Origin: Candidatus Tectimicrobiota bacterium
GTDB taxonomy: Bacteria > Tectomicrobia > Entotheonellia > Entotheonellales > Entotheonellaceae
Length of the DNA: 64,000 nt
Direction: 5' to 3'
NCBI GenBank assembly: GCA_026005175.1
Contig: BPKO01000003.1
Location: 248,001-312,000 of the forward strand
Shown here piece after piece: positions 12,736-13,250 of the stretch; the first letter of the stretch is position 1; every line of letters begins with the position of its first letter. The translations under genes were made by a program, and so were the position numbers. The notes under the pieces are model-generated. The model was given only the letters and a program-made list of their open reading frames with translations. It was not told where the DNA came from and made no database searches.

Positions 12736-12821
12736 GCTGACAAATATGGCACGGCATGGCCCGCCGCGGCAACGCCTTCGGGCACGGCCCGCGGCAGAGC
12801 CCCACGCAGGGATGCAAGACG

Positions 12822-13250
12822 ATGCGTTTTCTTAGCCTCCACGTCAACAGCTTCTGCTGTACCATCACCACCAAAGGCCGCAGCCCTATCTGCGAGCCTT
12901 ACGACGACCCGGTAACACGCGTGCAGGAGGCCCTGGTGGTGCTGGCCAGCGTCGAGCGCGGCGACGCGCGCAACCCCGAGCAAGTGGCCGTCCGTGCCGC
13001 GGCGGAAATCGCCGCCTTGGCGCGGCAGCTCAAAGTGACTACCGTGGTGCTACACCCCTTTGCCCACCTCTTTGGCGAACTCAGCTCCCCCGAGGTGGCC
13101 ATTGAGGTGCTGCGCCGCACCGAAGAGGCCCTTATCGCCCAGGGCCTGACCTGCTACCGGACGCCCTTTGGCTGGTTCAACACCTTGCAGCTCGACGCCA
13201 AAGGGCACCCTTTGTCGCGCGTGGCCCGCGTGGTGACCCCCGATGCCTAG
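12822..13250 (+). CDS. Free-standing archaeal-type threonyl-tRNA synthetase editing domain
   Basis: The 142-residue product matches, over its full length, the N-terminal editing domain of archaeal threonyl-tRNA synthetases, a D-Tyr-tRNA deacylase-like fold that removes serine from tRNA-Thr. Visible landmarks are the opening MRFLSLHVNSF, a Lys in ITTKGR, VLHPFAHLFGELSSPEVA with the family's catalytic His, and the closing TPFGWFNTLQLDAKGHPLSR. There is no aminoacylation or anticodon-binding domain, so it would act in trans. Bacterial ThrRS normally uses an unrelated N2 editing domain. The ATG at 12822 aligns with archaeal starts and has an AGGGA site; an upstream in-frame ATG at 12756 would add an unconserved leader. 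Function is inferred from family resemblance. Confidence 0.82.
   Translation: MRFLSLHVNSFCCTITTKGRSPICEPYDDPVTRVQEALVVLASVERGDARNPEQVAVRAAAEIAALARQLKVTTVVLHPFAHLFGELSSPEVAIEVLRRTEEALIAQGLTCYRTPFGWFNTLQLDAKGHPLSRVARVVTPDA

Follow-up and report, generated by a model that had tools for sequence, protein, structure and literature searches.

The DTD-like fold is represented in the literature by DTD, the editing domain of archaeal ThrRS and the animal protein ATD. A canonical ThrRS editing domain deacylates Ser-tRNA(Thr) and leaves Thr-tRNA(Thr) intact. In the editing domain of P. abyssi ThrRS, the scissile bond has four side chains close by that could participate, namely His83, Tyr120 and Lys121 and, across the dimer, Glu134; the catalytic water is positioned by Lys121, whilst Glu134 from the partner monomer holds the substrate amino group (PMC4491819). 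Mutation of Lys121 to Met severely compromised the P. abyssi, A. pernix and M. jannaschii domains, and Tyr120 and Glu134 were found to be dispensable, singly and jointly, in those of P. abyssi and A. pernix (PMC4491819). Catalysis in this domain is driven by the 2'-OH of the tRNA (PMC4491819; PMC5802732). DTD has Met rather than Lys at the position equivalent to 121 (PMC4491819), and between DTD and ATD, which share the same fold, a conserved arginine has migrated along with a change in specificity (PMC5802732). Stand-alone canonical domains have also been reported, and in some archaea these adjoin SepCysS and sulfur genes (PMC5424206).

The window analysed here is the whole 64,000-nucleotide stretch of a contig from a Candidatus Tectimicrobiota bacterium. 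The gene under study begins with an ATG at 12822, terminates with a TAG at 13248-13250 and encodes a protein of 142 amino acids (Table 1). An alternative in-frame ATG at 12756 would extend the product to 164 amino acids, though the alignment of relatives begins at 12822. Differences between the window gene and its three closest relatives (L008, L009 and L010) were mostly located at third codon positions, with NG86 estimates of dN 0.19 and dS 1.08 against L009 and dN 0.29 and dS 1.67 against L010, giving a dN/dS of approximately 0.17; dS was saturated against L008. The gene is real, free-standing and under purifying selection. Its product was the sole PF08915 match in its own assembly (G000; 3.99 Mb, 77% complete), and a promoter scan around the gene found nothing.

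Table 1. Coordinates within the window of the type-I gene and of its diagnostic motifs
Feature	Coordinates	Strand	Remarks
Stand-alone tRNA-Thr_ED-like protein (type I), 142 aa	12822..13250	+	PF08915 E 2.1e-35; fold Z 26 vs P. abyssi editing domain; purifying selection
Arg20-Ser21 codons, type-I signature	12879..12884	+	Invariant in 35/35 type-I proteins; absent from ThrRS editing domains
HPFAHL, residues 78-83	13053..13070	+	His82 = P. abyssi His83, substrate-carbonyl contact
PFGWFN, residues 115-120	13164..13181	+	Phe119, Asn120 replace P. abyssi Tyr120, Lys121
KGHPLSRVAR, residues 127-136	13200..13229	+	Arg133 replaces P. abyssi Glu134, cross-subunit residue holding substrate amino group

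The initial annotation had recognized a free-standing, 142-residue protein in a bacterial genome that matched the ThrRS editing domain from end to end, including HPFAHL and PFG...KGHPL motifs, and each of these observations was borne out. Residues 1-137 aligned to positions 1-136 of the 137 in the Pfam profile PF08915 (tRNA-Thr_ED), with an E-value of 2.1e-35 and a score of 122.3 bits relative to a cut-off of 30.2, and the two motifs are located at residues 78-83 and 115-131. PF08915 was the only domain returned by a Pfam scan of the protein, with no match to PF02580 (DTD) or any other domain. The protein also scored 75.7 bits, below the 362-bit cut-off, with the model NF011500 (Ser-tRNA(Thr) hydrolase, ThrRS-ed), of which it matched only positions 3-134 of 387, the protein itself ending at 142 amino acids. 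Among solved structures, it is closest to the ThrRS editing domains of M. jannaschii, P. abyssi and A. pernix. Nine natural sequences served as input for an AlphaFold2 model (pLDDT 93), which superimposed on the P. abyssi domain (1y2q) with a Z of 26.3 and 1.1 A over 141 residues. These three editing domains gave Z scores of 24-26, followed by DTD at 16; hence modelling retained the ThrRS editing-domain fold rather than revealing a different one, and neither sequence nor fold placed the protein closer to another enzyme family.

The residues of the amino-acid pocket, which the initial annotation had overlooked, differ from those of archaeal ThrRS. When the protein was aligned to the residues named in the published work, the positions of P. 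abyssi His83, Tyr120, Lys121 and Glu134 were found to be occupied by His82, Phe119, Asn120 and Arg133, respectively, such that the combination of Lys121 with Tyr120 and Glu134 that marks the canonical domain is not present. In an alignment of 86 complete sequences, Tyr120-Lys121-Glu134 (Y-K-E) was found in all 24 canonical domains of the ThrRS kind, whether fused or free-standing. The 62 non-canonical sequences invariably lacked Lys at 121 and carried Arg or Lys at 134; 45 of them have Asn at position 121, with Leu, His, Ser, Thr, Phe or Cys in the remainder. Within type I, the group to which the window protein belongs, this position may be Asn, His, Ser, Thr or Phe, but never Lys. All complete type-I proteins retain His83, the FG of PFG and KGHP, and have an invariant Phe84 that is rare in ThrRS domains. 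As read from these alignments, the pocket swap (no Lys121, Arg or Lys at 134) is a concerted change over many lineages.

Two further large groups of stand-alone PF08915-like proteins of approximately 136 amino acids, types II and III (L090-L116), were encountered in the phylum of G061, one of the bacterial type-I hosts. They occur in approximately 11% of 297 genomes drawn from that phylum, and likewise lack Lys121 and have Lys or Arg at 134. Free-standing proteins with the DTD-like fold and an altered pocket were present in approximately 12% of the genomes drawn from this phylum.

In a tree of 69 sequences, the Y-K-E domains formed one side of a branch with support of 100/99, and types II and III one side of another (100/100), whilst type I was separated by a branch of weak support (63/0). 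Removal of the three stretches holding the diagnostic residues recovered type I as a clade at 100/96, with the Y-K-E group disturbed by one long branch in that tree. The window protein was placed outside the Y-K-E clade of ThrRS domains. The initial annotation had presented it as an archaeal Ser-tRNA(Thr) editing domain within a bacterium, a view at odds both with its position relative to archaeal N-terminal domains and bacterial homologues in these trees and with the concerted difference of three pocket residues. Given the separate clade, a recent import of an archaeal ThrRS domain does not account for the bacterial type-I proteins. Within type I, archaeal and bacterial members were intermixed in the unrooted tree, suggesting gene transfer inside this group.

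Scanning 84,980 species, each represented by one genome, retrieved nine loci, all of which encode free-standing proteins. They came from metagenome-assembled genomes (MAGs) labelled Deltaproteobacteria (76% identity), Binatota (75%), Nitrospinota (70%) and Tectomicrobia (61%), two Chloroflexi MAGs (approximately 50%), and archaea of the Freyarchaeota (52%), Jordarchaeia (49%) and Bathyarchaeota, the copy in the latter being split by a frameshift. Type I was found in approximately nine of 119 genomes drawn from the phylum of the Freyarchaeota MAG and approximately 20 of 400 drawn Chloroflexota genomes (about 5%). Among the matches listed for 300 genomes of the phylum of the Bathyarchaeota MAG, the best were ThrRS-sized frames, and the only stand-alone match resembling type I was that of the MAG itself (G068). 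None of the three remaining genomes in the window's family encodes a type-I protein, and the distribution is therefore patchy. The possibility of a mobile or plasmid gene was rejected, as the window protein had no match in 72,556 plasmids, 50,697 phages or PHROGs. Frames of archaeal type and ThrRS size, in which a canonical Y-K-E editing domain is fused, were also observed in two genomes drawn as bacteria, namely G216, with two such matches (C1:1775727-1776149 (L089) and C1:1979586-1980002), and G015, with one on C83 (L017).

We favour, with modest confidence, the interpretation that the window protein is a candidate trans-acting aminoacyl-tRNA deacylase with a DTD-like fold and a re-specified pocket, directed at an error other than the Ser-tRNA(Thr) made by ThrRS. 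By analogy with its relatives, the protein would form a homodimer and bind A76 at the 3' end of a tRNA, and the 2'-OH of the tRNA would remain the driver of hydrolysis, as it is in DTD and in the ThrRS domain. Arg133, acting across the dimer interface, may position water or provide a local positive charge in place of Lys121, and the loss of Glu134 would remove the anchor for the substrate amino group. With this anchor lost and Arg133 substituting, plain L-Ser-tRNA(Thr) of ThrRS origin is thus probably not what the protein acts on; the putative substrate would be another small or modified aminoacyl-tRNA left uncleared by N2-containing ThrRS, AlaRS and DTD. The variability of position 121 within type I argues against a fixed role for Asn. 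The arginine that changed place between DTD and ATD sets a precedent for such a change of specificity within the fold. More tentatively, types I-III may together constitute a large, unnamed set of bacterial and archaeal proteins that proofread a tRNA error escaping ThrRS, AlaRS and DTD alike.

The best surviving alternative, which we regard as unlikely, is the milder of the two options in the initial annotation, in which the protein hydrolyses Ser-tRNA(Thr) in the ordinary way and acts in trans as a supplement to the N2 domain of bacterial ThrRS, the pocket changes being neutral. The common fold and the conservation of His83, FG and KGHP are in keeping with this, as is the deacylation of E. 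coli Ser-tRNA(Thr) by archaeal domains (PMC4491819); moreover, since two archaeal enzymes tolerate the replacement of Tyr120 and Glu134 (PMC4491819), a swap at these sites need not change specificity. However, Lys121, on which full activity depends in the P. abyssi, A. pernix and M. jannaschii domains, was found in none of the 62 non-canonical sequences, the type-I clade lies outside the canonical ThrRS domains, and the hosts already edit Thr. A PF08915 scan identified full archaeal ThrRS proteins with their own editing domain in the Freyarchaeota and Bathyarchaeota type-I hosts, and the Jordarchaeia host, judged by sequence, also has an archaeal ThrRS with a cis editing domain; Asgard hosts carry both the canonical cis domain and type I. 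In genomes such as G137, G158, G161 and G176, which encode a stand-alone type-I protein as well, frames of approximately 690-720 amino acids matched the editing-domain profile over its second half alone (58-138); these are possibly ThrRS proteins whose editing domain is reduced. Replacement of DTD by type I was rejected, with DTD present in the window's genome and in every other bacterial host tested. A 256-amino acid open frame with a tRNA_SAD match (G000:C3:86289-86417; L007) was also noted in the window's genome, and is possibly a free-standing AlaX-type editing protein.

Gene neighbourhoods were considered as a functional clue, and a conserved operon was rejected as such, with no neighbour common to the whole family and none pointing to translation. 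The window gene has a divergent CysQ/inositol-phosphatase-like gene upstream and an acyl-CoA synthetase gene downstream. Elsewhere, nrdR lies upstream of type I in five Chloroflexi, SDR genes lie beside several members and a Rid-family gene beside one, and CoA-transferase genes flank some. In two Asgard genomes, cysE (serine O-acetyltransferase), cysK (cysteine synthase) and the type-I gene follow in this order, few bases apart (L011:4210-6423 and L014:4236-6423). This arrangement echoes the published association between stand-alone domains and SepCysS and sulfur genes (PMC5424206), for which reason a serine/cysteine error is kept in consideration.

Such an error could involve mischarged tRNA(Cys), or a tRNA bearing a serine derivative such as O-acetylserine, with type I acting as the corresponding quality-control deacylase. 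In addition to the Asgard gene order, the fact that in some archaea canonical stand-alone domains lie beside SepCysS and sulfur genes, and the preference of the domain for U73, which fits tRNA(Cys), are compatible with this role (PMC5424206, PMC8762117). We nonetheless judge it quite improbable, given that the cysE-cysK neighbourhood was found in only two related archaea and in none of the bacterial members, and that the SepRS-fused examples in the literature retain the serine-recognition motif. SepCysS was present in five archaeal hosts, but gave no match over the cut-off in any of the seven bacterial type-I hosts, G000 (77% complete) included, or in the relatives searched, hence a role in the SepRS/SepCysS cysteine pathway is not supported for the bacterial hosts.

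Slightly more doubtful again is a departure from translation altogether, in which the protein hydrolyses some other adenosine-linked ester or thioester, such as an acyl-CoA or acyl-adenylate. With Arg or Lys at 134, the pocket would suit a phosphate or carboxylate and repel an alpha-ammonium group, and the acyl-CoA synthetase gene downstream in the window and the SDR or CoA-transferase genes flanking some members could be read likewise. Yet such genomes are rich in SDR and acyl-CoA genes and the neighbours vary from clade to clade, whilst the experimentally studied members of the fold, DTD, ATD and the ThrRS domain, all act on tRNA.

A further proposal of the initial annotation was that the host ThrRS lacks N2 and relies on this factor in trans. 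The thrS gene was absent from the window's own assembly, which at 77% completeness is most simply an assembly gap; infC and rplT are not adjacent to thrS in relatives, so there was no syntenic locus to inspect. The N2/SAD domain (PF07973) was identified in the ThrRS of all six other readable bacterial type-I hosts (G052 (= G064), G060, G061, G062, G065 and G067), that of G065 being read from a gene cut by a contig end. Dependence on an N2-less ThrRS, as in Crenarchaeota, is hence very hard to credit, being rejected for all readable hosts, with two members of the window's own family (G001 and G002) also encoding a SAD-containing ThrRS without PF08915, and the sole point in its favour being the thrS missing from an incomplete assembly. 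Thus, what had been claimed of family, fold, stand-alone form and bacterial genome stood, whilst the reliance on an N2-less ThrRS and the notion of a transplanted archaeal domain were not supported. Another genome of the same class (G004; 990 contigs, estimated 94% complete) also had no thrS match over the cut-off, such that thrS is missing from two of the five genomes of this small group; both absences are probably assembly gaps.

The Pfam domain PF08915 and free-standing canonical domains are already known, and the only work on bacterial stand-alone PF08915 proteins that we found in the open-access literature concerns those linked to SepRS and SepCysS. We found no description of the charge-swapped branch in that literature. 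Bacterial phyla also commonly encode the DTD-like fold as a free-standing protein, with a pocket unlike that of the archaeal ThrRS domain. If these proteins are true deacylases, many bacteria make an unrecognized class of mischarged tRNA, and if types I-III proofread an uncovered tRNA error, they represent a further bacterial use of the fold. The natural swap at Lys121 and Glu134 also puts to the test the view that editing by this fold relies on RNA and backbone rather than on side chains.

The closest described systems are the N-terminal editing domain of archaeal ThrRS (PF08915; P. abyssi 1Y2Q, M. jannaschii 4RRF) and its crenarchaeal trans form (A. pernix ThrRS-2), whose fold matches that of the window protein over its full length (Z 24-26), with approximately 36% identity and shared His83, FG of PFG, KGHP and invariant Glu45 and Asp48. 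Unlike the archaeal domain, the window protein is free-standing, without an anticodon-binding domain, has Phe, Asn and Arg in place of Tyr120, Lys121 and Glu134 together with the invariant Arg20-Ser21, and belongs to a separate clade; type-I hosts also differ from the archaeal and crenarchaeal systems in retaining another Thr-editing system. The stand-alone or SepRS-fused tRNA-Thr-ED proteins linked to SepCysS similarly place PF08915 outside ThrRS, the fused ones being bacterial, but the SepRS-fused proteins keep the serine-recognition motif and their group is tied to SepCysS/SepRS (PMC5424206; PMC8762117), whereas the bacterial type-I hosts lack SepCysS. DTD (PF02580) and ATD are stand-alone dimeric deacylases that share the overall fold (Z 12-16), but the window protein has no PF02580 match and the genomes concerned have a separate gene for DTD. 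Types II and III (136 amino acids; phylum of G061) resemble type I in being free-standing and bacterial, in the absence of Lys121 and in the basic residue at 134, and differ from it in forming their own clade and in their changed KGHP motif.
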